Virus record (IMG/VR): IMGVR_UViG_3300020442_001502
Span: 1 to 42,914 of that record
Source: a virus
Reading direction: 5' to 3' (one strand)
Length of the DNA stretch: 42,914 bases
Position numbers and translations under genes: made by a program. This document shows positions 4,784 to 28,154 of the stretch, piece after piece. How positions within the stretch are numbered: position 1 is the stretch's first letter; every line of letters begins with the position of its first letter. Under the pieces are notes generated by a model, which saw only the letters and a program-made list of their open reading frames with translations, was not told the origin of the DNA and did not search any database.

Positions 4784-4808
4784 ATTTGTATAAAGTCCTT
4801 ACAGGGAG

Positions 4809-7264: not shown

Positions 7265-10200
7265 ATGAATATTAATAAGGTCTCCCAGTCTATCGCTTCT
7301 CAGTCTCCTGAGTTCCTTAAGACAGAATATCCTCTGTTTAATAAGTTTATTGAGTACTATTATAGGTCTCAGGAAAAAACTGGTTTAGGACAAAATATTG
7401 TCAATAACTTTTTACAGTATCTTGATATTGACAAACTAGATATTAACATTTTAGGTGGATCTACAAGGGTTGTAGAACCAATTACTGCAGAAAGTGATGA
7501 AATCGTTGTTGAAAGTGTTGATAGTTTTTTAGATACCAACGGATCTATTTTAATTGGTGATGAGGTAATTTATTATGAAAATACCTCTCATGCACCTAAT
7601 ATTGCACTGAGTCCTGGTATTTCGTATGATCAAGTAAAGTTAAAGTGGACTGGACTTGCTCAAATCATTGACTTGTTCGATGGAACATCTATTCGTTTCC
7701 CTCTTACATCACAATCTTCTCCAATTGCTGCTCCTTCGGCTCAGCATTTGATTGTCAGTCTTTACGGTGAAATTTTAATCCCTAATACAGATTATACTGT
7801 TGATGGTACAGATATTGTATTTACAACTGCTCCAAGGGCAAGAAATACTGGAGACGATAATGTTAATACATACATCACCTTCTTGAGTGGTTTTATTGAA
7901 AATACCATTGTATCCATTGACAATATTTCTGGATCTTTCGGAGAAAATAAAACCGAGTTTAAACTTACTGCTGGTGGTACTAAGTATGAACCCATTGCAC
8001 CCGAATATATTTTAGCAGTCTACGATAATAGACTTCTTGTTCCCAATGTAGATTTTTACATTGATGGTGACTTATTCATATTTACTGAAGTCCCACTTAA
8101 CGGAAGAGTTCTGTCTTTATATTCTATTGAGGCACCTATTCCCACCTTTGGATCTGGTGCAGTTGGATATGCACGAATTAATGATACAGGTGAACTTACA
8201 TCTATCAGCATTAATGAAACTGGATCTGGATATCAATACAAATATCCTCCAAGAGTTTCTGTTCAGCATCCCGATGGTTCTGGTGCTTCTGCAAAAGCTC
8301 TTATTGATGGAATTAAGAGTGCGATTCTTCTTGACGGTGGAAAGGGGTATAGCAATACTAATCCACCAACTGTTGTTGTTGAATCTCCCCAGAATGTAGA
8401 TGCTCAAGTGCCTCAACTAAAGGCAGTTGTTACAAATGGATCTGTTTCTAGTCTTGAAGTTGTAAATTCTGGTAGTGGATATACATTTGTTCCTAGAGTT
8501 ACTTTTAAACAACCTGGTGGGGCAAAACTCGGTGCAGCTACCATTACAAATGGAACTATTACAGGAACTATTTCTGTACTAAATGGTGGTCAGGGATATA
8601 CAACTGTACCAACCGTTTATGTTGATGAACCAACGGGAACTAATCCAGTAAATGCAAATTTACAGGCAGTTCTTACCGATGGTGTTGTTACTTCAATCAA
8701 TATTGTAAATGGTGGACAAGGTTTTGAGACTGTTCCTAGGATTGCTATTGTTGATCCTACTGGTGCTCAAGTTTTACAAACCTTAGTCGATGCTGACGGT
8801 AGAGTTGTATCCGTCGAGTTGTTAGATGGCGGCAGTGGTTATGATGACGTTCCTTCCGTTTATATTGTTGATAATGAAGGTAATGGAACAGGAGCGACAG
8901 CAACTGCTAGTGTTTTTAATGGTAGAATTACAGATATTAACATCTCCAATTTTGGATCTGGTTATTCCTCTGCAAATCCCCCTCAAGTAATTATTCAAAA
9001 TCCTCCAGAAGCTAGATCTTCTGTTGAAATTGGTTTGAATGAAGTTACTGGATTTTCTGTATCTAAAAGTGGAAAAGGATATAGTAAAGCAAAGTTTGAG
9101 GGTTGTGCTAGAGCAGTTAGTGGTATCGTTGAATATACTGAAAGCGGCAATGCCGTATTTTCAAATAACACTACAGCATCCGTAGCAAGTGAAAATGCTG
9201 AGGTAAAATGTCTTGATGCCCTTTTTGTTAAGAGACTTTTAGATAAGTACACCGAACAATTCCTTCCTGATGTTCCTGAACTTGACTACACTAAAATTGA
9301 CGTTAGAAACGCAATTAAGTCTGTAAAAGATTTTTACTCTACAAAAGGAACATCGTTTAGCGTTGCGTACCTCTTTAAACTTCTTTATGGTGAAGAGGTA
9401 ACAGTTTCATATCCAAAGGATCAAATTACCAAACCATCTGCAGCAACTTGGTCTATTGATACTATTCTTAGAGCAACTCTTGTTAGCGGTGATCCTACAA
9501 ATATTAAAGATGGTCTCTTAACTCAGGAAGAAAGTATTGCAGATCCGAATATCAAAGCAGCGAGTGCTTTGATTGAGAACTATATTTCAATTAAAACTTC
9601 TGATGTTGAACTTTTTGAACTTGTCTTATCTGAAGAAACTATTGATGGAACTTTCATAGTTCCTTATAAAACAAAACTTGCAGAACCACTTGATACAACT
9701 AATAGTATCATCACTGTAGACTCTACAATTGGTTGGCCAGAAAGAAACGGTGAATTTATCATTGGTGGCACCGAACTTATTCAGTATAAAGAGAAGTCTT
9801 TGAATCAGTTTATTGAGTGTACTCGTTCTGTAAACGGAACTGTCGAAGATTGGGATTCAGCAACAGAAATTACTTCTAACCTTCAAGTCTTTGTAAACAA
9901 AGGAACTCCACAAGAAGTAGTTTTAAATATCGTTGGTATTATTGATGCTCAACAAACAACCTTAACTGATACAGGATCTTATTATCTTACTGGAGATAAA
10001 CTTTCTGTATCTAAATTGGGTGGTAGTTCACAAAAACCTGAATTGCAAACCTGGTTGTACAATGTTAAAAAACTTTTAACTGTTGAAAGTATTACTTTTG
10101 GTGGCGTTGATAATAGATTCGCCACAGTTACTTGTGCAAACTCTCATGGTCTTTTAGTTGGAGATCAAGTTACAATTTACGGTGCTAATCCCATCATTTA

Positions 10201-13200
10201 TAACGGAACTTTCTTAGTAACATCTAGAGATAGTACCACTGTATTCCAATATCAACTTCCACAAACAGCAACTATTGCACCTCAAGGCAATATTCTTGTA
10301 TCTGTTGACCTTAACAAAGGTAAGTCTGATAATAGTGCTGTATTGAATTCTATCGGACCATACACCACAAATATTCAGAATTCCTTCTTTGACGACAATT
10401 ACGTCTATGTTGCCTCTACAGGTATTCCTAATTATAAAATTGGTCCTTTCCCAGGATCCGCTCTTTTACCTGGCAACCAACGTAAATTAAATAGATTTCC
10501 TTTAAATCCTTCTACTATCTCTATTAAGGATAATATTGTCCCAGGTCCTATTGGAACTTGGATCAATGGAACATCCATTTGGTCATATAAATCAAGTGTC
10601 AAGAAGACATTTGGTCCAGTTACAGCAATTAATATTACTAATGCTGGTTCTGACTATGATGCTGCATCTCCTCCAAATATTACTATCTCTGGTGGTGGTG
10701 GATCTGGAGCAACTGGATCTGTAACTGTTAATGGATCTATTACAGAGATTGCTGTAGATGCTGGTGGTAGTGGTTATACTTCTCCTCCTCTGATCTCAAT
10801 TGTTGGTGGCGGCGGTTCTGGTGCTTCTGCAACTGCTATTGTTACCAAAGGTGTTGTTTCCAGTATCTTAGTCAATAATGGTGGTACTGGATATACATCT
10901 CAACCAAGTATCACTGTTGTTGGTGGTGGTGGAACAGGAGCAACTGCAACTGCTTCAGTTCGTGGTCCTATTCAATCAATTGCAGTTACTGCAGGTGGTG
11001 ATTCGTATACTTCAAATCCCAGTGTCACACTGAGTTCTGGTACTGGCGCTGTCGCTCAGGCAATTGTTAATAATGGTAGAATTATCTCGATTGCTATCAT
11101 TTCTGCAGGTACTGGATATACCACAGCACCAGAAGTAACTATTCAAGGTGATGGTTTTGGTGCTGTTGCTCGTGCTACTATTGATACTGATGGCGAAAAT
11201 GCTGGAAGAGTTACTAATATTGAAATTATCAATCGTGGTATTAACTATGTTCAGGGAACAACTTTAATTAATCTGACTTCTGCTGGTTCTGGTGCAACAT
11301 TTGAACCCAGTGTATTCCAATGGACGTATAATCTAGAAGAGACAACAACTGTTGATTCGGCAAGGGGTTCTGTATTTGCTGGATTTAATAATCAGTATGG
11401 TGGTGAATATGCACATATTTCTAATCCTCAAAGACTGAGATATATTCTTGGTGATAACTTATTTGAAAATGTTGCTGGTGCTATTTTAGAACAGGATAGT
11501 CAGTTAGAGCACTCCCCTATTATTGGTTGGGCATTTGATGGTAATCCTATCTACGGTCCCTATGGATATAATGATCCTACAGACCAGTCATCGAATATCA
11601 CTCGGTTGAATACTTCTTATAGACTTAAGACAAATCTGGTTTATAATGAAATTTCTAATCCTACTCCAGTTAGACAATCTGGTCCTCTGTTATCTGACGA
11701 AACAGCAGGTAATTTTGTTGAAGACTATGAATATAGTTTTGGATTAGGTGACCTTGATCAGTATAACGGTCGTTTTTGTAAGACTCCAGATTTTCCCGAA
11801 GGTAGATATTGCTATTTTGTCACCATTGACACAACTGAAGCAGGAAATCCAGTCTTCCCTTATGTTCTTGGTCCAAGTTTTAACTCTATTGCAGATCCTT
11901 GGAACTTAAACAAAGATGCAATTCAACAAAATATTCCAACAGGTGTTGTAAGATATCGTGATCCCTATGAAAATGTTGATATTGATGTTGATAGAGCACC
12001 TAATGCTTCTACAAATGCATTAACTCTTGAAAATGGTGATATTTTGTTATTTGAAGTAGAAGACGAAAATAGAGATGGTATCATTACTCAAGATGAAACT
12101 GATGATCCTGATCAAATCTTTGAAGAATCACCATTACAGTTATTTGACTACTTCCCATCAGTAAGATTTGATTCTAAAGTTGATATTGAAGTTGAAACGA
12201 CAACTAAATTTGAAGATGCTTCCGTAACTGGATTTATTATTGAAGATGCTGGTAAGAGTTATCAGGTTGATGATATTCTTATCTTTGATAACGAAGATAC
12301 TGATGGAACAGGTGTGTCTGCTAGAGTTTCTAGGATTACTGGTGAAACTATTAGTGGTCTCACTTTTGAGACTGAAGGTGATAATTTTATTGGTAAACTT
12401 ACTACAAGTGTACCTCATAATATTGTTGCTAATGACAATATTTTCGTCTCATACAATCCAATCATGGATGAGACAAATAAACAGTTTGTTGTTAGACAAT
12501 TTAAGGGTATTGAAGAAATTGTTGTAAATCAATCTGGTTCGGGATATGACTCAGAAATTCCTCCAACAATCATTATCGATGGTGATGGTGAAGCAGCAGC
12601 GTTGAGCGCAACTGTAAGTCCTACAGGATCAATTGCTAATGTTGATATTGTAAATGCTGGAGTTGGATACACTAAAGATCCTAGAGTTATTTTAAGTCAT
12701 CCTCAAATCTTTAAAAAGGCAGATTATTATGTTGCACTGATTCAGAATGAAAATTATGTGAAAGTTAATGATGTTTTTGTTAATGATGAAAAGGATGCTT
12801 TCTTCTGTGGTAAAACTCTTGATACTAATGGAAATGAAGTTGCATTTATTTCTAAATTCTCAGAACTTGGTGTTAAAGAGTGGGAAGAAAGATTAGAAAG
12901 TCAAGATGGAGAAACTTACACAGAGTTTACTAAACTTGATGTGAGTGGTGATATTATTTGGGTAGTTGGTCACAACAAACCAAATTCTGCAATTCTTACT
13001 GCTTATAATCCTGATGTCATCTTGGCAAAGTATACGCAGTCTATTGATGGACTGAGTGCAACTCTTAATTTCCAAAAAGGATATTCTGGTATTTCTGGTT
13101 CTACAAGAGCAGATAATATCACAACTATTAAGAAGTATTCGGATACTCGTTATATTATTGGTGGATTTACTAATACAAACTCTGCCAATCCACAAGATGC

Positions 13201-16200
13201 TTTTATCGCTTCTATTGATGCTGCAGGTTCTTTTGCTGCAAAGAGAAAATTAGCATCTGCTTCTGGATCTGAAAAAATTACCGATTTAATCGTTTTAGAT
13301 GATGCAGTATATTTCATTATGGAAACTGCATCAACTGATGGTAATGCAGATAGTAAAGTTGCTTTTGGTAAGGTTCTCGTTGGAACCTCTGTAATTACGG
13401 TTGAGTGGATTAAGGAAATTAATAATACTGCATATTCCTTTAGAGATACTAGTTTAGTAGTTGATGAATTTAATGAGTTCTATATTACATCTACATTAGC
13501 ACTTAAGAGTGATAATACCACTAAGGATAGTTTCTGGATTGGTAAACTTGACACTGCTGGAGATCTTCTTTGGAATTACAGATATGCAGTTCCCTCTGGA
13601 AGTTCTATTGAGTTAGCATCTAGATCTACAATCGATATTTTTGGCGATTTAAATCTTGCTTATACCAGAACTGATACCACAACAGGATATAAGACATTTG
13701 ACACTGCTAAAATTGGATATGATGGTAAACTGAAGAAGCATACAAATACAGAATTTAATAAAAATAATATTGAAGGTGTAACTGTAAATGCAATTACCGT
13801 AGATAATTCTGGCGACATTTATGCATTCGGTCAGACTTCTTGGAATAGAAATGAAGTTGTTTGCGAATTTGCTTCTGATGCTACAGATAAAACAGGTCAT
13901 TATACACTAGAAACACTCAGTGCTACTGATTCTGTTAAGTATGAAGGTGGATATGCCAAGATCTTCGGTTTCAATCCCGCAGGTTCTAATTCTGCTTGGG
14001 TTAATGGTGCAATCAAGGTTCCTGGAAATGTACTTGAGGAAAAACTTGGTGATGACTGGACTATTGAGTTTATGCTTCACAAAGACGCTACAAACTCTCA
14101 AACACTCTCCCAGACTCAACAGACACTAGTTGCAATTGGAGATGCTACAGACGCTACTGGCGGTCTCTGGATGTACTATGACATCTCTAGTGGTAAATTG
14201 GAGTTGGTTGTTACCAATAACACTACCACTATTAATGCTGCTGGTGGTGCTATTCAGTCCACACAAACTACAATGTATGCCAATAATAGTTGGCAATTTA
14301 TTGGACTTAAGAAGTCTGGTAATACCTTTACTGGATATGTCAATGGCATTCAAGTTGTTACGGGTACGATTGCCAATACAGATCTTGAAGATAAGAATTT
14401 GTATTTTGGTAATATTCCTGGTAAGAGTGGTACAACAGGACAGTTCCGTTCTAATGAGCAAGGTCAATTCTACATGGATAACCTTGTAATCAAGAACAGA
14501 GCAATCACACCAGACGTTCCTTCTGATGTTACTACTATTCCACCTGTTGCATCTTATGCTTTAGCATTCTCTTGGGCTGATACTGCATGGTTTACAAGTC
14601 ATACAAAGCGTTATGATTATATCGATTATGTTGGTTTTGGTATCAAATCTGATAAGGACTCTGATTCGGAAAGATTGGGTGATAAGGGTGTCCAAGTAAA
14701 TACAAATGTTGGATTTGCAAGAACTGCAATTACTCCAGTAACAGGATCTAACTTAATTGTTACTAACACTGGTTTTGCGTTAGGTGGTGGTGGACTGCAG
14801 GCACTTGATTTTGAGGATGCTACAACTACTATGGTTGTAAATCCAACTGACGTTTCATTGGTTTACAGTAATGATATTTGGGGTGCTAGAACCGCAACTG
14901 TTCCCTCTCCTGGTTCCAATAAACTTTCTATTGAGGCGAAGGTCAAGAATCGTTATTACATGAAGACGACTTCTACGTCAAAAATTGATAATGTACAAGA
15001 ACTTACTCTTAATCAAAAATTCAATATCACTGTTGGATCTAAGTTAGTTCTTAATAATAACTCAGGCAGTTTTGTTAATAGTGGTTATGTTCTTAGTGTA
15101 GATAACACTAATAATAAAGTTTATCTTGCTGTTAATAATAATCTCTGGTCTAATGATCTGAATACTGGTCTTATTTCTACAACTAGATTCGATGAGCAAG
15201 ATTCTTATGGTATTACAGGTCCTGTTGTTGCAGATGTAAATGAAATTTCGGAATATTACTTCTTGAATATTGTTAATACAACGCCTGGAACCTTTGACAT
15301 TGAGTTAGAAGACTGGAACTTAAATAGAACTGCAGCAAATCCTGGAAGTGGTGATTTAGATACTTTTGCTAAATTTAAACCCTTTAGTGTAGATGCATAT
15401 AGCGTAAGAATTGATGAAATTTCTGGTTCTTCTTCTTTCATTACTGGATCTGTAGTTAGCATCACTGATTCTGATATTTCTTTCAATAGTGATAAAACAA
15501 CAGCACAAATTACTAATTTGACTGGTGTTACTAAAATTACTCTCATTGCTACCTTAGACAAAGTACTGCAGGCAACTGCTGTTGCTAATACTGATGAAGT
15601 CTATATTATTACTGGTAATAGACACTATCTGTCTGCAGGAGATAATATTTTTGTTGATGGTAATCCAACTCGTACAGTTGGCGCTACAGCATACGATGAA
15701 TATGATGGATCTTTTGTAGTTGATAGAGTCGTAAGTAATAGAGAATTTACTTATAAATTAAATGCTGTTGCACAGACTGATCCAGCAACAACTCCTGGTG
15801 ATGTCAGCATTTTTGTTAAGTCACCTGTTCTTAAGATGTACTATGGTCACCAATATTTGTTTGACCTTAGTCACTCATCGATGGCTAATGCAAACTTATC
15901 TTTCTCTAAAGATAATCTGTATAAACTTGAATATTCGTTCAACTCTATTGAGAGAATTGGAACACCTGGAGTCACTGGTGAAGGTCAACCAACACCAACT
16001 GTCAAATTAAAAGTTGATCAAAATATTGTAACCAATATTTCGTATTATTTTGATCCATCTAGAACTGGAGATGAATCTCCTATTGATCCAAATAGTTATT
16101 TGGATATTGTTGACTCTCCTTACGTTGGAACATTTACTGTCAGTGAAGTTGCTGGTGCTACTATTACCACGGGTGCAAATATTATCAAATTCCCTCTAAT

Positions 16201-19200
16201 CAATGAACCAGAAGGAAATGCAAATATTACTAGAGCATCTTATAGTACAAGTTCTAAGAAAGCAGTTGGTACAATTGGCGATATTAGATTAATTAATTCT
16301 GGTGGATTCTATGCTAAGTTACCTGTTGTAACTGGTATTCAATCGTCTAGAAAAATTGAAAGAGTTCAGATTAATGAACCTGGAACTGAATATGCTGTTG
16401 GTACATACAATAGTGTTCCTATTGGTGGAGACGGTGAGGGTGGTTTAGTTACTATTGTTGTTGCAGATGGAACTAACGATGAGGGAGATACTATTCCTGG
16501 TCAGATTCAGTCTGTGTCTATTACTTCTCCTGGTAAAGGTTATACCACAGCAAATATTGATATTGAAGCAATTGATGGAATTCTTGGACCTGGATTAACT
16601 GGATCTGGTGCTGATATTGAGGTTGTCATTCCTCCATTCGGAACTGGTGCAGTTGTCTTTGCTAAAGGTAATAATGTTGGTAAGATTAAAAAACTGAAGA
16701 ACAACAACTTTGGTTATGATTACACCCATGATTATACTTTACGTCCTGAGATTACATTCCCCATCAATGCTCAGTTAACTTCTACGAGTATCTTGGATAG
16801 TATTACTGTTACTGATCCTGGTTCTGGATATTCTCAGGCTCCTGCTGTTGTTATTACTGGTGGTGGAGGTTCTGGTGCTATTGCTGAGGCATCGATCAGA
16901 AATGGAAGAATTGAACAGATTGCTATTAAAGATCCTGGAGCAGGATATTCTTCTGCCCCAACAGTTTCTTTGAGATCTTCATTCAATTATGTTGTAAACC
17001 TTGATCTTGGTTTGCTACAGTTTGCATTCCCTCATGGAATTACAAACGGTGCTGAAGTTACTCTTAATGTAGTTGATACTGGAGAAGGAATTGAGTTCCC
17101 ACTTGCCGCTGGTGCAATTGGTAGATTGAATGGAAATACAACATATTATGCTATTGCTGGTACAGCAAACTCTCTTGAAGATGATCAATTAAAACTTGCT
17201 ATCACATCAGCAAACGCTGAATTGGGTGATGCCATTTCATTCTCCAATGCTGGTACAGGAAGACAGCAAGTATTGACCGAATCTTTCGGTGCTGCTGCTA
17301 CAGCAAACGTTATCACATCTACTTTCTTAGAAGGTGAACTTGTATATCAAGGTGATACTCTTGCAACTGCAACTGCAACTGGATATGTTTCTACTAATGA
17401 AGGTTGGCAAATCGGACCAAGAATTCTTAAGATCGTTGATTATACAGGAACTTTTGTACAGAATCAAAGTGTCACTGGCGCTATCTCGAAGTCTTCTGGT
17501 GTGATTAGTGATCTTAAGATTGCTAAAGGTGTTTTGGAAGTTGGACCCATCACCAAAACAACTGGTCAATTTATTGATGACGTTGGCAAACCTTCCGAAA
17601 TTATTCAAAAAATTCAAGACTCTTATTATTATCAAGACTTCTCTTATGCAGTTAAGTCTTCTGTATCTATTGATGACTGGAAAGATATTCTTATTAAGAA
17701 TGTTCACCCTGCATCATTTAAGGTATTTGGTGAACTCAATTTAGAAGAATATGGATATACAGCTAACAAGGATATTGATTTTGAACTTACAAAGTCGGTA
17801 GAACTTGCTAGAGACGCAACTGTTCCTAATATTCAAAGTTTTGCTCTTGCAGAACCAATTTACAGCGAGTTTAATAACACAGAAGTTCTCTTCCGTCAAA
17901 AGCGTCTGACTTCCTCGGAGAATATTCTAACTTCTGTTGTTCAAAGACTTGATAATATCTCAAATCTTTTTGATGGTGAAAGGACTCAATTCCCAATTAC
18001 AGTTAATGGTGAGAACGTAATTGCAAACGCAAACCAACTGCTGATTGTTCTTAATGGTGTTGCTCAGACTCCAGATACTGCGTTTGAAGTTCAAGGAGAT
18101 TCTATTGTATTTGCTGAACCTCCTCAACCACCTGCAAGTGTCAAGTATGTCAATATTGGTATCTCTCAGGTAGCAACTAAGACATTGAGATTCCCTCCTA
18201 ATAGTGGTATTTTCCCGAGTATTGGTAATACCTTAGTTGGTGTATCTTCTACTGCAAGATTAACCGTAACCTCTATTGCAGGCGAGACTATTACTGGTTT
18301 TGTTACTCAAGGAACATTTATTCTTAATGAACAATGTCAAGTTAGTGCTACTGGATTCTCTGGAGCACTTTTAGAGATCACAGATGTTACCAGTAATGGT
18401 TTATTTGGATTTAACGAAACTGTTACTAATCTCTCTGGAGATACTGCAATTGTCGAATCCATCAACCTTGAAACAGGTCAGGAAACTCCTATTGCTGAAT
18501 TGCGTTATAGTATTGGTGCTGCTTCAACAAATATTGAAGTTGTTTCAACAACATCGTCTACTGATGCTCCCGTCCCTGCAGGAACATTTACTACAGGCGA
18601 AAATTATCAAATCGCTAGCGAAATCTTTAGAGTTGATTCAGTTACAAATGGAACAGATTCGACTGTACTTGTAGTAACAAGAGGACAACTCGGAACAACG
18701 ACAATTTCTCATCAAGAGGATACTCCACTGTATTCTACTGAGATTGAAGTTACTAATGCATTGACACTTAGTAAAACCACTGGTACATATCAATCTACAC
18801 CTGGTCTTTTCAATATTCAAACTGATGATACCATTATTGGTGCTCAGTCTGGTGTTGTTGCTAGAGTTACATCTACTAGTGCATATCAAGATCCAGAAAC
18901 ATTAGAATTTATTGAGCAAGTCAATATTTCATCTGGTTCATCTTTCTTTGGTCTTCTCTTCAACAGATTAACCTCAGTCACTTATCCGAATATCATTCTT
19001 GATGATATTTCTAAGTCTCAAGTAAGTATTGTTGATTTTGATGATAATCTGACTGCATTTGACTCTAAGTTCCCTGCTAACGAGTCGGTCAGTAATAATA
19101 TCTTGACTTATGATAACCCTAGCGGTGATTTGGATGATAACGAGTTCATTCGCAATTATAAAATCCGTTATGGTAGCAATAGTGCAGAATTTGGTGTAGG

Positions 19201-22200
19201 GGAAAACTTTAATATTAAGAAACTTACTCTTACTGATGAAGTTGGTGATGGATTCTTTGCTCAGGGTCAAATTATTAGAACTCGTGATACCAAAGCAGAA
19301 ATTATTGGTTATAGTCAGGCAAGAAAGACTATCTACTTAGGAAAGGTTGGTAGAACTCAATCGACTGGTCAGGACTATCACACTGCAACATTTGTTGCTG
19401 GTGCGTCACTTAACACTTACCATAAGAAATTTGGTGCTAGTGCTTTAGCACTTTCTCCTGGAACATCAACACATACTTTTGTAAGTGGTGTTACCAATGC
19501 AATTGTTGCTGGTGGTGGCGCTACAGGATCATTTACTGCTGCTACAGGCACCACATATAACCCATTCACGGGTGATATGGTAATTGAAATTGGCACCCAC
19601 ACTCTTACTACATCAAATACAGTAACTATCGCTAATGATGGCGTAGTATTTACTTGTGCTCAAGATAATAACACATCACAGAAAGCATATCCCCGTGCCA
19701 CTGATCCTGCATCAGGTTCTGCCCGTAACATTACTGCAGTAACTGGAACCACAATCACTGTAAATGTTGGTGCGGTTCCCATTGATGAATATCTGACTAT
19801 TCCAACTTCTACTGAGTTTGGATTTGGCGCTGGAACCTTTACTATTGAAACTTGGATCAAACTCAATAGTGTTGCTGCTGGTAGTAAAACTATCTTTGAT
19901 ATGAGATCTGCTGCGACTGAACTTGCTCCTTATCTGTATGTTGATGGTGCAAATCTCAAGTATTACAATAATGGATCTGTCACAATCACTGGTGCAACAA
20001 ATCTGGTAGTTGACACTTGGTATCATGTTGCTATCTCTAGAAATGGTACTGACACCAAGTTGTTCTTAAATGGTACACAAGAGGGTAGCACATACTCAGA
20101 TTCCAGTAATTATGGTTCTACAAAACCAATTAGAATTGGTGCTGATTACGCAGGTTCTGCTGTTACCACTGGATACTTTGATGATTTCAGAGTTTCTACT
20201 AATGCTCGATATACAGCAAACTTCACCGCTCCCACAGGCATGTTCCATGGTGATGCAAATACCAAACTCCTCTTCCACTTTGATGGTACATATGGTCAAA
20301 CATATACACAAGATTGGTCTGGTGGAGAATCCTTTACTGATGGTGAAGAATTCAATAATGATGCTATTGCAGAGACTTGGAGAGTAGGTTCTTCTAATCT
20401 TCCTTCTGGATTTGCAAACAGAACTCACAGATACTACGATGCCGCAACATCTGTGCAGCAAAACATTGAACTTCTTGCTGCAGAAGGCAACTACGCTGCA
20501 GTTCAAGCATCCCCATTCCAGTTTGATGCATTACAGTCTCCAACAACATTAACGGCAGCAACACCAGTTCTGAATTCTTACTTTGGTAGTGCTGTTGCAA
20601 TTTCTAATGATGGATCTACCGATAGAATGGTAGTTGGTTCTGAAAGATACAATAACTACACAGGTAGAGCATATATCTATGATCTGAATGGTGGAAATGA
20701 AGTTGTTCTTAACGCTTCTGATGGTGCTAATAATGATTACTTTGGTGATTCTGTTGCTGTCAATGCAAACAAAGTTGTAGTTGGTGCTCCTTACAATGAT
20801 GATGGTGGTAATGGTTCGGGTTGTATCTATACTTACAACCTGGATGGTACAGGAGAAAATAAAATTGTTGCTTCTGATGATGCTGCATCAGACTTCTTTG
20901 GTGTTTCTGTTGCAATGACAGATACTTACATCTTTGTTGGTGCTTCTGGAGAAACTAATGGTCAAGGTGCTGTTTATCGTTTCGATCTAGATGGCACTAA
21001 TGAAGTTAAGATTCAAGCTAGTGATGGTGGTGGTGGAGATAATTTTGGATATAGTATTGCTGTTGGTAGCAATCGCCTTGTAGTCGGTGCTAGATTTGAA
21101 GATGATCAAGGTAATAATGCTGGTGCAGCATATGTCTATAACTTAGATGGAACTAATGAAGTTAAGATTAGTGAAACTGATCTAGATCCTAGTGATTATT
21201 TTGGTGCAGCAGTTGCAGTTGGTGACAATAAAGTTGTTATTGGTTGTGGTTCATATGATGGCGATACAAATCAAGTGAGTCAGCAAGGTGCAGTTTTTGT
21301 CTATAACTTAGACGGAACTAATAAAATTAAAATTCAACCATCTGACGGTGGAACAGATGATCAATTTGGTTCAGCAGTTGCAGTTGGTGAAGGAAAGATT
21401 TTTGTATCTTCACCCTATTGGGATGCTGGTGGTCTTCAAAATACTGGTCAGGTTTATGCATATAACCTTGATGGTACTAATGAGGAAAAATTGATCATGC
21501 CATCTGCTGTTGCTTATGATAATATTGGATATCAAAAGTCATTAGCGGTTGGTTCTGATAGAATTATCGTTGGTGCTCAGTATGCTGATCCCAATGGTCA
21601 AGGTTCTGCTGGTGCTGCATACTTCTGGAAATATACACAAGAACTTACATCTGTTGACTTTAGTAACACATATAGAACAATTCTTGCAGAATTGGTTCAA
21701 GATATGCGTAATGGTAGTAACAGTCATATCTGGGATGCGTCTGCTGCTCTCGTAGATAGAACTGGAACTAGTGTCAGTGGTATTGTTGGATATACAACAG
21801 TTGATGATGATCAGTTATTGACTGGTTTCCAGACAATTCAAGGTCTCATGAGTTCTATTGTTAACTATGTGCCTATTACTATCGCAGGTAGTCATGGATT
21901 AACACAATTCACTGATGCAACTGTTACCGATTCTTCTTACGGTACACTCACTGAATTAACTGCCGCAACAGGAACCACTTATAATGCATCGACTGGTGAG
22001 ATGGTTATTACTTCCAACTCTCATGGACTGACAACTAGTAGTCTAATTAGAATCAAACCTGAGTCTTTAAGATTTACCTGTACAAGTGACAATAATGAGT
22101 GTGTCCTTGCTCACCCTCGTAAGAGTGATACTACTGCATATAACAGGGTTCTTAAAGTTACTGCTGTAAGTACAAATACATTTACAGTAAATGTTGGTGC

Positions 22201-25200
22201 ATCTCCTGTTGGTCAACAATATACACACACTTTTGTTGGTGCTGATACAAACGGTATTGTTGTTCTTGGATACACCACATCAGATTGTGCAGACGTTGTA
22301 TCCACAGTTAACAACCTTTTAGATATTACTGAAGATACCATTAGTGAAGCAATTGGTACTACTTCCAACGCTGCTAATGGTGACCACCTTGCAACAATCA
22401 CTAAAGTTACTCCCGCAATTGAGTTTGTTGGTGCTACAGTTGATGCCTATCGGACTAATTCCTTTATTGGAAAATATCACGATGGAACTGACGATGTTGT
22501 TTATACACATCAACTTGATACTGATTCTCAGTACAGATTCCGCGATGCAGCGAATTTGATTCGTGCTAACAGTGCGGTCATTGTAGATAAGGCATCTGCT
22601 GACATGCTTACAAGATATCCAGATCTTGCTAGCGATATGCCTAGAAATGTTGGTGGTAGTGATGCTGGTACAGAGCGTTGTAAGACTGACCTTGCGATCA
22701 TCGTTGGTGAAATGGCTAAGGATATTGAATTTGGTGGTAATGCAAATACAGTCACTGCTGCTAAGTTCTATTTGAACACTAATAATGAAATTCAGCATAT
22801 TAGACTTCAAGTATGGCAATCTGTCTATGCACATGACAGACTTGGTTATTACATGAAGCAGGCAATCAATGGCGATCTTGATTACACAAATACCGATAAT
22901 ATTATCACTGGTGATTGGGGAATCACTAATGATGCTGGTCAATGTGCAAACGTTGCATCCGCTATCGATACTTTAGTTACAACTATCAATGACCTTATTG
23001 CTCCAACCAATGAGGATTATAATATTGCTGCAGATAGACTTTACTTTAACAGAAAGTATATTGCAGAAGAGATTGTAGGACGTAATAATGCAACCTCTGG
23101 AAGAGGATTACTTGGTACTGAATTGAGATATACCAATAATAGTGGTACTTTTACTGCAATCAGTTATGATCGTCCTACCTTTACCACTTATATCAAGGAC
23201 TTCATTGTTGCAATGATTTCTGATCTTCAAACAGGTGGTGATAATAGTACGATCACTCAAATGCAGAAGTTCTTATCTTTTGATCTCAAGATCTCGGATG
23301 ACATCGATACGAAGTTGTTTGCTTTCTTCTATACTCATGAACAGATCAAAATGCTCGCTGAGAAAGCAATCAAGAATCTTCTGTATACTGCAGGATCTTC
23401 TATCAGTGGTGATCAGTATGCTGCATTACATACAAATGATGCGGCATACAGAGATAGTGAGTCTCCAACCGACATCACTGCAGTATCATGCAGAATGAGA
23501 AAACTGGTTGATATTGGTCTGGATACAATTTTACCTGGTGATATTGAGGCACGTAGTGCAGTTAAGAATATTCTATTCAATGAGAATTACTACAAAGCAG
23601 AAATTGCTTCTACTGTAAACTCTCAGTTTGGATCTGGTTCTTGGATATATGACTCTTTTGTCACTGATATCATCACTAATATTCAATATGATCTGTTCAC
23701 TACAGATACAGGTAATAGCAGAACTGCGTACACAGTAACTCTTGAATCTTTCAGCGGAACTTTTGTTGCTGGCAATACCATCACAGATGGTTCTGCTACT
23801 GCAGAAATTCTGTATGTTTCTATGCCTGTTCTAATCATCGGTGCAGTAACTGGAACGGTTTATTCTGCAGGTGATTCTTTATCCTCAGGTGGTGCCTCTG
23901 GTACTATTGCCACTGGCGGAATTACTTCGGCACACCAGTGGTACGAAGATATTAGTAATGTTAAAACTATTGAAAGTGCTACTGCAATTTCTTCCTTGAT
24001 CGAAGGTGCTGTAACTAATACTAACCTTTGGACTTTACCCGAGCAGTTTAATCAAAACTGGAGTGCAACTTTAAGTACAGTTACTGCAAATACTGGAGAA
24101 TCTCCAGATTCAACAACTACTTCGGATAAAGTTGCTGTAACTCAAACTACAGGTGAGCACTACATTGAAAGAACTTATGCTTTATCATCCTTTGATACTT
24201 TTGATAGTACATCTACTAAATTTGATAGTACAAACGATACATTTGACACTGGTGCTACTAGTGCTACGCAGACGTTCACATCATCTATGTTTGTTAAAGC
24301 GGATGAATATAATAATGTTCAATTCTCAGTTCGCTTAGATGGAGGAACTGTTAATGCTAAATTCAAGGTCGATCTGAATACTGGTACATTAGGATCACTG
24401 TTTGTTCAACCAGGCATGACAGTTACCGATCATGGAGCAATCCCATTTGGTGATGGTTGGTTTAGAGTTTATATCACTGCTGAATTTGGTTTTGGTTTCT
24501 CTAATTTCAGAACTAGACTTAATATTCTCCAGAATATTACACAAGTTGATAATTATACCGTTGGTGCTGGTCAAGTTGGTGGTGTATTTGCTTGGGGTGC
24601 TAAACTCACGAATCAACCATTAGCAACATACGTTGCTGTTGGTGGTCAAGAGTTCTACGCTAATGCAGAATTCAATATCAAGAAGTTTGCTCTTGATCTC
24701 ATCCAAGATCAAGTTGGTCTTGCATTGAGCAATCAACTCCCAAGTCCTTCAACTAATGCAGGATTCTATAAGTTCTATGATTCCACTGTTGCTTCAAATT
24801 ATAATGCAGATACAGTCAAAGGATTTGTAAGAACTAGTGTTGATGTCATTAAAGAGCAGTTGAAGTCCAGCATTTACTACACTACTGTTACAGAAAATAA
24901 TCCGTTAACTATTCCAGTTAAAAATTATGGCGATCGTGATATTCCTGTTGGAATTAGTGGTGAAATTATCGGTTCCGATTTCTTCTATTCACAAGATAAA
25001 GATTCTTACGCCGAGATTCAAACTGTAACTCTTAATGAGGCAAAAATTGCTAAGTCCTATAAGAGATTTAGAATTGATGGTAACATTACGGATGGTCCCT
25101 TTACTATGAACGAAGTCGTTCAGAAACAAGGCGATTCTAGTGTTACGGGTGTTGTTTATGGATTCTTTGAAGATGCAAATTATAAGTATCTCGATGTCGC

Positions 25201-26905
25201 TATAACAGGCGGAACATGGGCAATTCTTGATACAATTGTAGGTCAAGCAAATACCACAACTGCACAAATTAGTGCCATTGAAAATCGTTTACATCTGATT
25301 GATATCAAAGGATCTTTTGTTGAGAATATTCCATTCAAGGGATATACAAGTGGGGAGACTGCAGATCCAGTTTCCTTTACTGTTAATCAAGCAGCAGTTA
25401 CCGATAATACTGGTGGTAAGTTAACAGTTGATACTGAGACCCTCGTTGGTTCTTTAGAGACAACCTCGGTTCTTTATCCAGAGTCTTCTAGAGAATACTT
25501 AGAAGTTAGTAAGTATAATGGTCTTGATATTGAAGTTGGTGATAAGATTGCGTCTATCGGTCATGTTCGCTTGACTGTTTCCGTAGATCCTATTTTGAAT
25601 ATCTTTACAGTTGGTAATAGATTATATCAAATTACTGGTGGTGCTCAGAATACTGCAATTTATGGAATAATCACTGAAGTTGATCTTAATAACAACTATA
25701 TTTACTATGTCCCAGTTCAGGGAGCACTTAGTAGCGGTTCTATTGGAGATTATGGTCTGAGTGGAGTTACTTTACAAGGATCTGCAACGGTAAGTGCTAT
25801 CACTAGTGTCGCTGGCGCTGCTTCTGCTAGAGTTCAGGACATTCGTGATGCTGGTCTTAATAAGAGATTGTATCTTACTGATATTGCAGGAACATTCTCA
25901 AGTAGAGATGGCGTTAGGGGTCCTGACAACTATCGTTCTGCAGTTCTCACTAAGGAAGTTCTCACGGGACGAGTTAAGCGTTTCTTCAAAGGATTTGATG
26001 GCACTCAAACCACCTTCGATCTTACAATTGCCAACGGTACACAATATCTTCCAGATCCCGCTGGACACCTTCTTATCTTTGTTAATGGTGTTCTTCAACC
26101 TCCTGGTAGTGGCAATTCTTACAATGCGTTCTCTGATAAGATTCAGTTTACTGAACCACCCGATTTAGGGTCCTCCTTTACTGGTTTCTATATTGGTAAA
26201 TTGAGGCAACTTGATGACATCTCGTTTGAGTTTGATTCTTTACGTCAATCCTTTAACCTTAAGCGTGATGATATTTTCTATTCTCTTACGCTTACAGATG
26301 GTGTTCAGTCTAGTGTTATTAGACCTGAAAACAATATTATTGTTTCTGTTAACGGTGTTCTTCAAGAACCTGGAGTTGGTTTTGAGATTGTTGGTTCTAG
26401 AATTATCTTCTCCGAAATTCCACGCTTTGGATCCACATTTGTAGCATTCTCTTATGTTGGTTCTGAGGCAGACGTTGATGCTGACGTGGTTGTACCACCA
26501 GTTGAAGCAGGAGACTTTATTGATATTGAAGGTGAGGTGAGTGATCGTGAAGTTGCTGTTATTGAGTCTTCAAACTCCCTAATTACATTTGATTATCTTG
26601 GATCTGTGTTTGGTCAAAATGCTGATGCTACAGCAGTTCTGACAAGTGGATATATTGAAAAGGTTCAGGTCACTTCTGGTGGATCTGGATATACATCTAG
26701 ACCTGTAGTCAGACTTGACTCCATCTCTGGATTTGATGGTCAAGTTAAAGCACTCGTAGGTGTTGCTGGAGTCACCGTTACAAATGGTGGATCCAACTAT
26801 GAAAATCCAAGTGTTGATGTTGAAACTTCTGTTCCTGATGATTGGACTGCTCCAGATCTCTCTCTATATGGTGAAGAAGTAATCGACCCTGAAGTAAACC
26901 CATAA
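7265..26905 (+). CDS. Giant multidomain baseplate-adjacent structural protein (6546 aa)
   Basis: One uninterrupted 6546-codon frame, product near 700 kDa. Core segments match a family I recall directly after gp6 in marine T4-like phages: the N-terminal helix (SPEFLKTEYPLFNKFIEYYY, 14-33), a helical block with DFYSTKGT and LLYGEEV (650-718), and DFSYAVKSS...WKDILIKNVHPASFKVFGEL (about 3460-3495). Between and after these lie NGVLQ-type modules (126-290, 3561-3637, 6232-6400), GSGYT repeats (292-615, 1119-1349, 1650-1812, 3004-3240, 6459-6523) and TRG modules (66-115, 802-862, near 3745-3820). Also present are a YHYH-type domain (1416-1540), an SBBP-like propeller (1819-2199), LamG I (2206-2419), LamG II split by a module (4055-4325), an FG-GAP propeller (4439-4793), a helical region (4796-5460) and a CBM-like domain (5586-5792). 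A role at the baseplate periphery with carbohydrate contact is inferred. T4 gp7 identity could not be shown. Confidence 0.85.
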   Translation: MNINKVSQSIASQSPEFLKTEYPLFNKFIEYYYRSQEKTGLGQNIVNNFLQYLDIDKLDINILGGSTRVVEPITAESDEIVVESVDSFLDTNGSILIGDEVIYYENTSHAPNIALSPGISYDQVKLKWTGLAQIIDLFDGTSIRFPLTSQSSPIAAPSAQHLIVSLYGEILIPNTDYTVDGTDIVFTTAPRARNTGDDNVNTYITFLSGFIENTIVSIDNISGSFGENKTEFKLTAGGTKYEPIAPEYILAVYDNRLLVPNVDFYIDGDLFIFTEVPLNGRVLSLYSIEAPIPTFGSGAVGYARINDTGELTSISINETGSGYQYKYPPRVSVQHPDGSGASAKALIDGIKSAILLDGGKGYSNTNPPTVVVESPQNVDAQVPQLKAVVTNGSVSSLEVVNSGSGYTFVPRVTFKQPGGAKLGAATITNGTITGTISVLNGGQGYTTVPTVYVDEPTGTNPVNANLQAVLTDGVVTSINIVNGGQGFETVPRIAIVDPTGAQVLQTLVDADGRVVSVELLDGGSGYDDVPSVYIVDNEGNGTGATATASVFNGRITDINISNFGSGYSSANPPQVIIQNPPEARSSVEIGLNEVTGFSVSKSGKGYSKAKFEGCARAVSGIVEYTESGNAVFSNNTTASVASENAEVKCLDALFVKRLLDKYTEQFLPDVPELDYTKIDVRNAIKSVKDFYSTKGTSFSVAYLFKLLYGEEVTVSYPKDQITKPSAATWSIDTILRATLVSGDPTNIKDGLLTQEESIADPNIKAASALIENYISIKTSDVELFELVLSEETIDGTFIVPYKTKLAEPLDTTNSIITVDSTIGWPERNGEFIIGGTELIQYKEKSLNQFIECTRSVNGTVEDWDSATEITSNLQVFVNKGTPQEVVLNIVGIIDAQQTTLTDTGSYYLTGDKLSVSKLGGSSQKPELQTWLYNVKKLLTVESITFGGVDNRFATVTCANSHGLLVGDQVTIYGANPIIYNGTFLVTSRDSTTVFQYQLPQTATIAPQGNILVSVDLNKGKSDNSAVLNSIGPYTTNIQNSFFDDNYVYVASTGIPNYKIGPFPGSALLPGNQRKLNRFPLNPSTISIKDNIVPGPIGTWINGTSIWSYKSSVKKTFGPVTAINITNAGSDYDAASPPNITISGGGGSGATGSVTVNGSITEIAVDAGGSGYTSPPLISIVGGGGSGASATAIVTKGVVSSILVNNGGTGYTSQPSITVVGGGGTGATATASVRGPIQSIAVTAGGDSYTSNPSVTLSSGTGAVAQAIVNNGRIISIAIISAGTGYTTAPEVTIQGDGFGAVARATIDTDGENAGRVTNIEIINRGINYVQGTTLINLTSAGSGATFEPSVFQWTYNLEETTTVDSARGSVFAGFNNQYGGEYAHISNPQRLRYILGDNLFENVAGAILEQDSQLEHSPIIGWAFDGNPIYGPYGYNDPTDQSSNITRLNTSYRLKTNLVYNEISNPTPVRQSGPLLSDETAGNFVEDYEYSFGLGDLDQYNGRFCKTPDFPEGRYCYFVTIDTTEAGNPVFPYVLGPSFNSIADPWNLNKDAIQQNIPTGVVRYRDPYENVDIDVDRAPNASTNALTLENGDILLFEVEDENRDGIITQDETDDPDQIFEESPLQLFDYFPSVRFDSKVDIEVETTTKFEDASVTGFIIEDAGKSYQVDDILIFDNEDTDGTGVSARVSRITGETISGLTFETEGDNFIGKLTTSVPHNIVANDNIFVSYNPIMDETNKQFVVRQFKGIEEIVVNQSGSGYDSEIPPTIIIDGDGEAAALSATVSPTGSIANVDIVNAGVGYTKDPRVILSHPQIFKKADYYVALIQNENYVKVNDVFVNDEKDAFFCGKTLDTNGNEVAFISKFSELGVKEWEERLESQDGETYTEFTKLDVSGDIIWVVGHNKPNSAILTAYNPDVILAKYTQSIDGLSATLNFQKGYSGISGSTRADNITTIKKYSDTRYIIGGFTNTNSANPQDAFIASIDAAGSFAAKRKLASASGSEKITDLIVLDDAVYFIMETASTDGNADSKVAFGKVLVGTSVITVEWIKEINNTAYSFRDTSLVVDEFNEFYITSTLALKSDNTTKDSFWIGKLDTAGDLLWNYRYAVPSGSSIELASRSTIDIFGDLNLAYTRTDTTTGYKTFDTAKIGYDGKLKKHTNTEFNKNNIEGVTVNAITVDNSGDIYAFGQTSWNRNEVVCEFASDATDKTGHYTLETLSATDSVKYEGGYAKIFGFNPAGSNSAWVNGAIKVPGNVLEEKLGDDWTIEFMLHKDATNSQTLSQTQQTLVAIGDATDATGGLWMYYDISSGKLELVVTNNTTTINAAGGAIQSTQTTMYANNSWQFIGLKKSGNTFTGYVNGIQVVTGTIANTDLEDKNLYFGNIPGKSGTTGQFRSNEQGQFYMDNLVIKNRAITPDVPSDVTTIPPVASYALAFSWADTAWFTSHTKRYDYIDYVGFGIKSDKDSDSERLGDKGVQVNTNVGFARTAITPVTGSNLIVTNTGFALGGGGLQALDFEDATTTMVVNPTDVSLVYSNDIWGARTATVPSPGSNKLSIEAKVKNRYYMKTTSTSKIDNVQELTLNQKFNITVGSKLVLNNNSGSFVNSGYVLSVDNTNNKVYLAVNNNLWSNDLNTGLISTTRFDEQDSYGITGPVVADVNEISEYYFLNIVNTTPGTFDIELEDWNLNRTAANPGSGDLDTFAKFKPFSVDAYSVRIDEISGSSSFITGSVVSITDSDISFNSDKTTAQITNLTGVTKITLIATLDKVLQATAVANTDEVYIITGNRHYLSAGDNIFVDGNPTRTVGATAYDEYDGSFVVDRVVSNREFTYKLNAVAQTDPATTPGDVSIFVKSPVLKMYYGHQYLFDLSHSSMANANLSFSKDNLYKLEYSFNSIERIGTPGVTGEGQPTPTVKLKVDQNIVTNISYYFDPSRTGDESPIDPNSYLDIVDSPYVGTFTVSEVAGATITTGANIIKFPLINEPEGNANITRASYSTSSKKAVGTIGDIRLINSGGFYAKLPVVTGIQSSRKIERVQINEPGTEYAVGTYNSVPIGGDGEGGLVTIVVADGTNDEGDTIPGQIQSVSITSPGKGYTTANIDIEAIDGILGPGLTGSGADIEVVIPPFGTGAVVFAKGNNVGKIKKLKNNNFGYDYTHDYTLRPEITFPINAQLTSTSILDSITVTDPGSGYSQAPAVVITGGGGSGAIAEASIRNGRIEQIAIKDPGAGYSSAPTVSLRSSFNYVVNLDLGLLQFAFPHGITNGAEVTLNVVDTGEGIEFPLAAGAIGRLNGNTTYYAIAGTANSLEDDQLKLAITSANAELGDAISFSNAGTGRQQVLTESFGAAATANVITSTFLEGELVYQGDTLATATATGYVSTNEGWQIGPRILKIVDYTGTFVQNQSVTGAISKSSGVISDLKIAKGVLEVGPITKTTGQFIDDVGKPSEIIQKIQDSYYYQDFSYAVKSSVSIDDWKDILIKNVHPASFKVFGELNLEEYGYTANKDIDFELTKSVELARDATVPNIQSFALAEPIYSEFNNTEVLFRQKRLTSSENILTSVVQRLDNISNLFDGERTQFPITVNGENVIANANQLLIVLNGVAQTPDTAFEVQGDSIVFAEPPQPPASVKYVNIGISQVATKTLRFPPNSGIFPSIGNTLVGVSSTARLTVTSIAGETITGFVTQGTFILNEQCQVSATGFSGALLEITDVTSNGLFGFNETVTNLSGDTAIVESINLETGQETPIAELRYSIGAASTNIEVVSTTSSTDAPVPAGTFTTGENYQIASEIFRVDSVTNGTDSTVLVVTRGQLGTTTISHQEDTPLYSTEIEVTNALTLSKTTGTYQSTPGLFNIQTDDTIIGAQSGVVARVTSTSAYQDPETLEFIEQVNISSGSSFFGLLFNRLTSVTYPNIILDDISKSQVSIVDFDDNLTAFDSKFPANESVSNNILTYDNPSGDLDDNEFIRNYKIRYGSNSAEFGVGENFNIKKLTLTDEVGDGFFAQGQIIRTRDTKAEIIGYSQARKTIYLGKVGRTQSTGQDYHTATFVAGASLNTYHKKFGASALALSPGTSTHTFVSGVTNAIVAGGGATGSFTAATGTTYNPFTGDMVIEIGTHTLTTSNTVTIANDGVVFTCAQDNNTSQKAYPRATDPASGSARNITAVTGTTITVNVGAVPIDEYLTIPTSTEFGFGAGTFTIETWIKLNSVAAGSKTIFDMRSAATELAPYLYVDGANLKYYNNGSVTITGATNLVVDTWYHVAISRNGTDTKLFLNGTQEGSTYSDSSNYGSTKPIRIGADYAGSAVTTGYFDDFRVSTNARYTANFTAPTGMFHGDANTKLLFHFDGTYGQTYTQDWSGGESFTDGEEFNNDAIAETWRVGSSNLPSGFANRTHRYYDAATSVQQNIELLAAEGNYAAVQASPFQFDALQSPTTLTAATPVLNSYFGSAVAISNDGSTDRMVVGSERYNNYTGRAYIYDLNGGNEVVLNASDGANNDYFGDSVAVNANKVVVGAPYNDDGGNGSGCIYTYNLDGTGENKIVASDDAASDFFGVSVAMTDTYIFVGASGETNGQGAVYRFDLDGTNEVKIQASDGGGGDNFGYSIAVGSNRLVVGARFEDDQGNNAGAAYVYNLDGTNEVKISETDLDPSDYFGAAVAVGDNKVVIGCGSYDGDTNQVSQQGAVFVYNLDGTNKIKIQPSDGGTDDQFGSAVAVGEGKIFVSSPYWDAGGLQNTGQVYAYNLDGTNEEKLIMPSAVAYDNIGYQKSLAVGSDRIIVGAQYADPNGQGSAGAAYFWKYTQELTSVDFSNTYRTILAELVQDMRNGSNSHIWDASAALVDRTGTSVSGIVGYTTVDDDQLLTGFQTIQGLMSSIVNYVPITIAGSHGLTQFTDATVTDSSYGTLTELTAATGTTYNASTGEMVITSNSHGLTTSSLIRIKPESLRFTCTSDNNECVLAHPRKSDTTAYNRVLKVTAVSTNTFTVNVGASPVGQQYTHTFVGADTNGIVVLGYTTSDCADVVSTVNNLLDITEDTISEAIGTTSNAANGDHLATITKVTPAIEFVGATVDAYRTNSFIGKYHDGTDDVVYTHQLDTDSQYRFRDAANLIRANSAVIVDKASADMLTRYPDLASDMPRNVGGSDAGTERCKTDLAIIVGEMAKDIEFGGNANTVTAAKFYLNTNNEIQHIRLQVWQSVYAHDRLGYYMKQAINGDLDYTNTDNIITGDWGITNDAGQCANVASAIDTLVTTINDLIAPTNEDYNIAADRLYFNRKYIAEEIVGRNNATSGRGLLGTELRYTNNSGTFTAISYDRPTFTTYIKDFIVAMISDLQTGGDNSTITQMQKFLSFDLKISDDIDTKLFAFFYTHEQIKMLAEKAIKNLLYTAGSSISGDQYAALHTNDAAYRDSESPTDITAVSCRMRKLVDIGLDTILPGDIEARSAVKNILFNENYYKAEIASTVNSQFGSGSWIYDSFVTDIITNIQYDLFTTDTGNSRTAYTVTLESFSGTFVAGNTITDGSATAEILYVSMPVLIIGAVTGTVYSAGDSLSSGGASGTIATGGITSAHQWYEDISNVKTIESATAISSLIEGAVTNTNLWTLPEQFNQNWSATLSTVTANTGESPDSTTTSDKVAVTQTTGEHYIERTYALSSFDTFDSTSTKFDSTNDTFDTGATSATQTFTSSMFVKADEYNNVQFSVRLDGGTVNAKFKVDLNTGTLGSLFVQPGMTVTDHGAIPFGDGWFRVYITAEFGFGFSNFRTRLNILQNITQVDNYTVGAGQVGGVFAWGAKLTNQPLATYVAVGGQEFYANAEFNIKKFALDLIQDQVGLALSNQLPSPSTNAGFYKFYDSTVASNYNADTVKGFVRTSVDVIKEQLKSSIYYTTVTENNPLTIPVKNYGDRDIPVGISGEIIGSDFFYSQDKDSYAEIQTVTLNEAKIAKSYKRFRIDGNITDGPFTMNEVVQKQGDSSVTGVVYGFFEDANYKYLDVAITGGTWAILDTIVGQANTTTAQISAIENRLHLIDIKGSFVENIPFKGYTSGETADPVSFTVNQAAVTDNTGGKLTVDTETLVGSLETTSVLYPESSREYLEVSKYNGLDIEVGDKIASIGHVRLTVSVDPILNIFTVGNRLYQITGGAQNTAIYGIITEVDLNNNYIYYVPVQGALSSGSIGDYGLSGVTLQGSATVSAITSVAGAASARVQDIRDAGLNKRLYLTDIAGTFSSRDGVRGPDNYRSAVLTKEVLTGRVKRFFKGFDGTQTTFDLTIANGTQYLPDPAGHLLIFVNGVLQPPGSGNSYNAFSDKIQFTEPPDLGSSFTGFYIGKLRQLDDISFEFDSLRQSFNLKRDDIFYSLTLTDGVQSSVIRPENNIIVSVNGVLQEPGVGFEIVGSRIIFSEIPRFGSTFVAFSYVGSEADVDADVVVPPVEAGDFIDIEGEVSDREVAVIESSNSLITFDYLGSVFGQNADATAVLTSGYIEKVQVTSGGSGYTSRPVVRLDSISGFDGQVKALVGVAGVTVTNGGSNYENPSVDVETSVPDDWTAPDLSLYGEEVIDPEVNP
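8150..9110 (+). repeat. GSGYT protein repeats, block 1 of giant gene
   Basis: Eight consecutive units of about 35-45 residues encoded in the giant gene. Each follows a pattern like nG-vtsi-v-n-GsGYt-vP-v-i--p-G-gA. The G-x-GY/F anchor occurs as GSGYQ, GKGYS, GSGYT, GQGYT, GQGFE, GSGYD, GSGYS and GKGYS. The block separates the N-terminal helix of the protein from its next conserved helical segment. Confidence 0.8.
10617..11300 (+). repeat. GSGYT protein repeats, block 2 of giant gene
   Basis: Six units with a glycine-rich turn GGGGSGA or GGGGTGA between them (anchors GSDYD, GSGYT, GTGYT, GDSYT, GTGYT, GINYV). The middle units are the most alike in the window, which suggests recent tandem duplication. 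Confidence 0.8.
12720..13865 (+). repeat. Seven SBBP/PQQ-like propeller repeats in giant gene
   Basis: Residues about 1819-2199 contain seven blade-like repeats of roughly 45-60 residues. Each has a hydrophobic strand (for example DIIWVVGH, RYIIGGFT, NEFYITST, DIYAFGQT), then a D-x-F-I/W strand and an outgoing turn such as ID-AAGSF or LDTAGDLLWN. The pattern resembles the seven-bladed SBBP repeat family. Assignment is by eye and less certain than for the FG-GAP block. Confidence 0.55.
16270..16985 (+). repeat. GSGYT protein repeats, block 3 of giant gene
   Basis: Five to six units (anchors GGFYA, GTEYA, GKGYT, GSGYS, GAGYS). One two-unit segment (about 16365-16660), with VPIGGDGEGG, GKGYT and IEVVIPP, closely resembles the gp8 insertion at about 33010-33250. 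Confidence 0.75.
19463..19783 (+). repeat. 107-codon module inserted in LamG domain (copy 1)
   Basis: This in-frame segment carries AATGTTYNPFTGDMV, TFTCAQDNNT-like and TITVNVGAVP motifs. They match a second copy at about 21952-22250 (AATGTTYNASTGEMV, FTCTSDNNE, TFTVNVGASP). Flanking residues KFGASALALSPG and DEYLTIPTS together make an uninterrupted LamG start. Confidence 0.6.
20579..21645 (+). repeat. Seven FG-GAP-like propeller repeats in giant gene
   Basis: Residues about 4439-4793 hold seven repeats of 48-55 residues with the consensus YFG-aVAVg-nkvvVGa, a short polar loop, GaaYvYnLDGTNE and vkI-asDGg-dD. The phenylalanine-glycine start and the VVGA strand are the hallmarks of integrin-alpha-like FG-GAP propellers. 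Seven units make a closed propeller. Repeats 3-6 are close in sequence. Confidence 0.8.
21952..22250 (+). repeat. Second copy of the AATGTTYN-VNVGA module
   Basis: This copy lies in the helical region after the propeller. Here the HTFVGADTNGIV element follows VNVGASP, whereas in copy 1 the matching HTFVSGVTNAIV element precedes the unit, so the two copies are in different register. Confidence 0.6.
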
Positions 26906-26909
26906 ATAA
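26901..26909 (+). promoter_or_regulatory. T4-type late promoter (CATAAATAA)
   Basis: The late-type box overlaps the stop codon of the giant gene (TAA at 26903-26905) and lies 20 bases before the next ATG. It should restart late transcription for the two accessory virion genes, independent of the 19.6-kb gene upstream. Confidence 0.65.
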
Positions 26910-26928
26910 CTAAAAATCATAGCGAGTA

Positions 26929-28149: not shown

Positions 28150-28154
28150 GTTAA

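Follow-up and report, generated by a model that had tools for sequence, protein, structure and literature searches.

The baseplate wedge subunit gp7 is one of the few proteins central to every T4-type contractile tail. In T4 itself, six gp7 monomers are bound to gp6 dimers (PMC3004832), while in phage XM1 a gp7 orthologue of 242 aa holds the tail spikes through a loop (residues 80-106) and its C-terminal region (201-242) (PMC10457771). The S-SM1 orthologue, SSM1_102 (T4-GC969), is among the experimentally identified virion proteins (Sullivan 2010, PMC3037559), so that for this orthologue the virion mass spectrometry suggested in the original prediction is already published. ORF122 of S-CREM2 (1937 aa), encoded directly after the likely gp6, was represented by 91 unique peptides (PMC10665884), and S-PM2d081 (3048 aa), called by its authors just a very large hypothetical protein, acquired non-synonymous mutations during coevolution with Synechococcus (PMC9910659). 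Judging by size and number, S-PM2d081 is S-PM2p081, the gp7 found here. The family is thus already known from GenBank and PHROGs (phrog_701); what is new here is its anatomy, and we found no account of its insert architecture, growth or swappable modules in the published literature (open-licence papers).

The window that we analysed is the whole 42.9-kb (42,914 nucleotides) IMG/VR virus record IMGVR_UViG_3300020442_001502. It contains a T4-like structural cluster comprising a phrog_719 protein, a PAAR-like protein, gp25, gp6, a giant open reading frame, a gp9/10-N connector, a phrog_708 protein, gp8, a DUF4815 protein, a small virion protein and an Mtd_N protein (Table 1). The giant ORF lies directly after gp6 in the wedge cluster (gp6 ends at 7258, the giant starts at 7265), and the order gp25-gp6-gp7-gp9-like-gp8 is shared by the three phages compared, S-CAM22, P-SSM7 and P-SSM4. 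The uninterrupted 19.6-kb frame of 6546 codons was confirmed, running from ATG to stop with no internal stop codon, and its product has a calculated mass of 700.8 kDa and a calculated pI of 4.4. It had been proposed to be among the largest phage structural proteins; it does belong to that size class, but as a size record it was rejected, as the gp7 of P-SSM4 is larger (7312 aa) and longer homologues also occur in S-WAM1, ACG-2014d and P-SSM7. The DUF4815 protein beside gp8 (window 33892-41514) is also very long, with 2540 aa vs about 1800 aa in its likely phiM12 counterpart.

Table 1. Features of the wedge cluster and of the giant gp7 in the window (aa, residues of the giant protein).
Feature	Position	Strand	Basis
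gp25, wedge/sheath initiator	4809..5228	+	PF04965, phrog_261
gp6, wedge partner of gp7	5228..7258	+	PF21379, phrog_219
Giant gp7 (baseplate wedge subunit), 6546 aa	7265..26905	+	phrog_701; PF23786 above gathering cutoff
Core segment 1, N-terminal helix-turn-helix (aa 3-57)	7271..7435	+	compact-gp7 HMM, E 3e-9
Insert A, all-beta, GxGY-type repeats (aa 58-653)	7436..9223	+	AF2 and comparison with compact gp7
Core segment 2, helical, DFYSTKGT...LLYGEEV (aa 654-729)	9224..9451	+	compact-gp7 HMM, E 4e-17
Insert B (aa 730-3432), same position as domain V in T4 gp7	9452..17560	+	compact-HMM segment positions
YHYH domain within insert B (aa 1370-1524)	11372..11836	+	PF14240, E 1e-31
Core segment 3, WKDILIKNVHPASFKVFGEL, HPxxF/G block (aa 3433-3493)	17561..17743	+	compact-gp7 HMM, E 9e-15
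C-terminal tail C, in which the most variable part lies (aa 3494-6546)	17744..26902	+	conservation profiles
LamG (concanavalin-like) domain (aa 4175-4315)	19787..20209	+	PF13385, E 5e-19
Exchange site P1 with seven-repeat FG-GAP block, predicted beta-propeller (aa 4425-4794)	20537..21646	+	PF14312, E 2e-55
Exchange site P2, empty in the window (aa 5765-5773)	24557..24583	+	comparison with other loci
gp9/gp10-N-like tail fibre connector	26929..28149	+	PF07880, phrog_677
Wedge-associated protein with YHYH	28155..32321	+	phrog_708
gp8, wedge	32360..33892	+	PF09215, phrog_438

On sequence grounds, we identify the giant as the gp7 orthologue, and hence the baseplate wedge subunit, of a marine T4-like cyanophage of the Kyanoviridae close to P-SSM7 and S-CAM22, because T4 gp7 shares its core segments, the second and third being separated there by domain V. 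The three conserved stretches quoted in the original prediction are real (aa 21-33, about 689-712 and about 3464-3483), and in profile searches all of them match one family, gp7, with one match each and in order. The compact-gp7 HMMs used were built only from the gp7 proteins (498-1007 aa) of Xanthomonas X1, Stenotrophomonas Moby, the freshwater cyanophage BUCT-ZZ01 and Sinorhizobium phiM12, and in 50 shuffles their best match had an E-value of 0.5. Segment 1 corresponds to T4 gp7 from residue 645 (Pfam Gp7_helical 643-689), aligned to T4 solely via a joint profile of segments 1 and 2. Segment 2 has a (K/R)GT motif, matches residues 732-764 of T4-type gp7 and includes the PF23786 match (aa 670-722, 27.3 bits vs a cutoff of 27), and the counterpart of segment 3 in T4 gp7 is at 865-890. 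No other protein in the window carries gp7 core segments. Each of the 22 gp7 proteins examined had one copy of segments 2 and 3, in order, and 20 of them had segment 1 as well, that of ACG-2014f being non-significant with the small compact model and significant with the full one; the order was never violated in the 112 IMG/VR ORFs having all three. Segment 2 alone was found in 518 phage records (E<=0.01), mostly of cyanophages but also of Sinorhizobium, Stenotrophomonas and enterobacterial T4-like phages.

Database comparisons placed the giant in the same family. The best PHROGs families were phrog_701, phrog_19630 and phrog_18802, with scores against phrog_701 of 6067 bits for one half of the protein and 4586 bits for the other, overlapping half, covering most of the family length, and DNA and protein searches recovered homologues in cultured Synechococcus and Prochlorococcus phages. 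A single-sequence search of the PDB gave gp7 of KP1 and T4 as the best, weak matches (0.004), and a profile of the compact homologues matched KP1 gp7 at 5e-11 and T4 gp7 at 7e-8, segment 3 forming a second, weaker part of the match. The AF2 model of a compact gp7 (pLDDT 70) likewise matched best two baseplate chains as long as gp7, one from KP1 (E 5e-7) and one from T4 (E 2e-6); its TM-scores are low (0.17), so that the support comes from the local-match E-value. The T4-type domains V and VI (PF21427/PF21456) gave no Pfam match in the giant. They are absent from compact gp7 and phiM12 too, and therefore mark the T4 clade rather than define the wider gp7 family. NCBIfam gave no match on the N-terminus of the window protein, and TIGR02242 was below cutoff in some compact gp7. 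The gene is named gp7 in the P-SSM2 and P-SSM4 records, and 'structural' or 'hypothetical' in others. Annotation of the region is uneven: the S-SKS1 record has a long gp7 region without an annotated gene (133286-140283), yet segment 2 matches there, and in S-BM1 (OQ319120) and metaG-MbCM1 (JN371769) several genes are annotated across the region of the giant, for example a gp14 neck protein and a YadA protein.

The giant therefore keeps the normal small gp7 core in three pieces, and long in-frame additions bring it to about 700 kDa. These are A (about 590 aa) between segments 1 and 2, B (about 2700 aa) between segments 2 and 3, and C (about 3050 aa) after segment 3, together about 97% of its length. 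Annotated gp7 proteins range from 498 aa (X1) through 1032 (T4) and 3048 (S-PM2) to 7312 aa (P-SSM4). The compact gp7 of X1 (498 aa), Moby (503) and BUCT-ZZ01 (607) share the whole three-segment plan but lack insert A and have a B of about 180-250 aa and a short tail; in compact gp7 generally, segments 1 and 2 adjoin and segment 3 follows after 164-566 aa. T4 gp7 (1032 aa, PDB 5iv5) shares segments 2 and 3, the helical domain of segment 1 and the locus after gp6, but has about 640 aa of its own before the helical domain, separates segments 2 and 3 by only about 103 aa and lacks the cyanophage modules. The XM1 counterpart, gp17 (242 aa), is about 27 times shorter and, according to its published description (PMC10457771), is a T4 gp7 orthologue in the wedge; its spikes are separate proteins on its loop and C-terminus.

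The closest relatives, PSSM7_090 of P-SSM7, BOW88_gp152 of S-CAM22 and the gp7 of P-SSM4 (phrog_701), occupy the same locus and have the three segments, an A near 583 aa and a B near 2700-2800 aa, and those of P-SSM7 and S-CAM22 are 72-75% identical to the window protein in aligned residues. The P-SSM2/S-PM2-type gp7 proteins (3032-5195 aa) are alike in core and in their large B and C, whereas their A is just 83-93 aa in seven isolates. Compact IMG/VR gp7 have an insert A of 18 aa at most, and in each of the 74 window-type IMG/VR loci measured it is about 583 aa long; insert B falls in two length classes in the window-type loci, near 2700 and near 2790 aa. In a gp6 tree, which was midpoint-rooted and has phiM12 and X1/Moby on long branches, phages with a long A form one clade (100/99), those with a short A are its sister (92/91), and compact gp7 lie outside (96/97). 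The proposal of an ordinary baseplate-adjacent protein enlarged by successive in-frame insertions is thus borne out: the segments are collinear with gp7 of 498-607 aa, the steps in A match the gp6 tree, and the presence of tail modules still varies. In the window clade A and B are near-fixed in length and C varies by whole modules. The parsimonious reading is that A and B would have grown in ancestors and then become fixed.

Within tail C, the presence of whole modules varies at definite sites. The anchors of P1 are conserved (around aa 4290-4425 and 4800-4935), and the length between them ranged from about 0 to 802 aa in 74 other ORFs, a count that sets aside two further ORFs as wrong anchor pairings and in which some loci duplicate cultured isolates. 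Thirteen ORFs including the window have an FG-GAP block at P1, of seven units in twelve and six in one. One locus (L191) is collinear on both P1 flanks without the block; S-CAM22 and S-SM1 also lack it, and P-SSM7 has another block there. Seven other loci (L250, L221, L185, L190, L192, L186 and L207) have an FG-GAP block at P2, one of them cut by the contig end. Blocks of P1 and P2 are about 31-42% identical to each other and P1 blocks up to 90% among themselves, so they look like old, site-bound lineages. Close relatives vary in their LamG region, too, both in its length and in its identity, and the LamG/FG-GAP stretch had no match among PDB sequences. Tail sites at which a complete, predicted seven-unit FG-GAP propeller and LamG-region blocks vary in presence are apparently unreported, as is the near-constant length of A and B.

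Comparison with S-CAM22 gave a dN/dS of 0.09-0.30 in every scored 400-aa bin, the propeller bin being unscored as S-CAM22 has no propeller. A value of 0.89 against P-SSM7 (bin aa 4401-4800) arises because unlike blocks were forced into alignment, and we do not take it to mean relaxed selection. The most conserved parts include the surroundings of the core segments, residues 3001-3500 and roughly the final 150 residues, and the most divergent are aa 4800-6000 and the P1 region. The conservation profile of locus L188 was left out because a chaining error affects its first half. AF2 modelling of residues 1-789 predicts helices at 4-52 and 652-767, both of low confidence, and an all-beta stretch at 67-650, mostly with pLDDT above 80; the low confidence of the helical parts would fit a need for the gp6 partner. 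A fold search with this model gave no match in the PDB at E<0.001, and mainly cyanophage and other phage proteins in a viral library. The GxGY-type beta module recurs in the window gp7, the phrog_708 protein and gp8 and matches neck, gp5-type and wedge family profiles, and the region of compact gp7 comparable to it resembles domain I of the T4 sheath protein gp18.

Taken as a whole, the best explanation, which we consider probable, is that of a gp7 orthologue with its core in the wedge, its inserts directed outward and the variable tail C perhaps touching the host. The core segments would supply what gp7 contributes to the (gp6)2-gp7 core bundle, so that the baseplate would contain about six copies of the giant, or about 4.2 MDa. 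A, B and C would point outwards and enlarge the outer baseplate, and the stretch of C in which modules are exchanged may contact the host surface. An extra baseplate collar or host-contact layer, as suggested in the original prediction, is likewise hypothetical. The wedge location of the core is very likely and the outward position of the inserts likely, and host contact by tail C is plausible. However, a LamG, YHYH or FG-GAP fold is no proof of receptor binding, and other genes in the window, such as that of the Mtd_N protein at 42059, may encode the main receptor binders. It is a serious possibility, a little short of an even chance, that the added modules are structural alone, serving as spacers and stiffeners of a large baseplate, while the tail fibres and the Mtd_N-type protein do all the recognition. 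This would suit the near-fixed length and good conservation of A and B and a GxGY module common to gp8, neck and sheath-like families, but sits poorly with a tail C in which relatives have or lack entire FG-GAP and LamG-region modules, and with the coevolution mutations in the S-PM2 orthologue. That the wedge chain is itself a receptor-binding platform, in which exchangeable modules of tail C (FG-GAP at two fixed sites and the LamG region) set host contact and part of recognition lies outside the separate fibres, we regard as possible rather than probable.

An improbable alternative is a processed polyprotein, the 700-kDa product being cut into several virion proteins of which the core part alone is gp7. 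Apart from the extreme length of the product, it draws on S-H38, in which a gene for a subtilase-family protease (19878-21530) is located among the wedge genes a short way downstream of gp7. In ACG-2014d, S-RIM14 and S-WAM1 this place is taken by YHYH proteins, no subtilase is annotated there in the window or the other relatives read, and the core extends across about 3490 aa, which means that a cut inside A or B would split it. It is most improbable that the true gp7 is the adjoining phrog_708 protein and the giant an unrelated structural protein. The S-CAM22 orthologue of the former (24543-28670) is labelled 'baseplate wedge initiator gp7' in one record, a name that conflicts with the core-bearing gene; the phrog_708 protein was rejected as gp7, as it has none of the three core segments and the giant has all three, and the giant lies directly after gp6, as does gp7 in T4, phiM12, X1 and Moby. 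An assembly artefact fusing several genes, the misassembly considered in the original prediction, is excluded for practical purposes by single collinear ORFs at the same locus in the cultured S-CAM22 (6273 aa) and P-SSM7 (7124 aa) and in independent contigs (one IMG/VR ORF spans giant aa 77-6544 at 87.5% identity), and by purifying selection in the scored dN/dS bins.

In summary, a gp7 whose length varies between 498 and 7312 aa while its core stays recognisable constitutes a clean case of a core machine part growing by insertion, and the giant gene takes up about 11-12% of the genome in S-CAM22 and P-SSM4. Taken with the virion proteomics and the coevolution mutations, the assignment to gp7 provides a testable account of the role of giant structural proteins, and the module sites are places in which to seek host-range differences.
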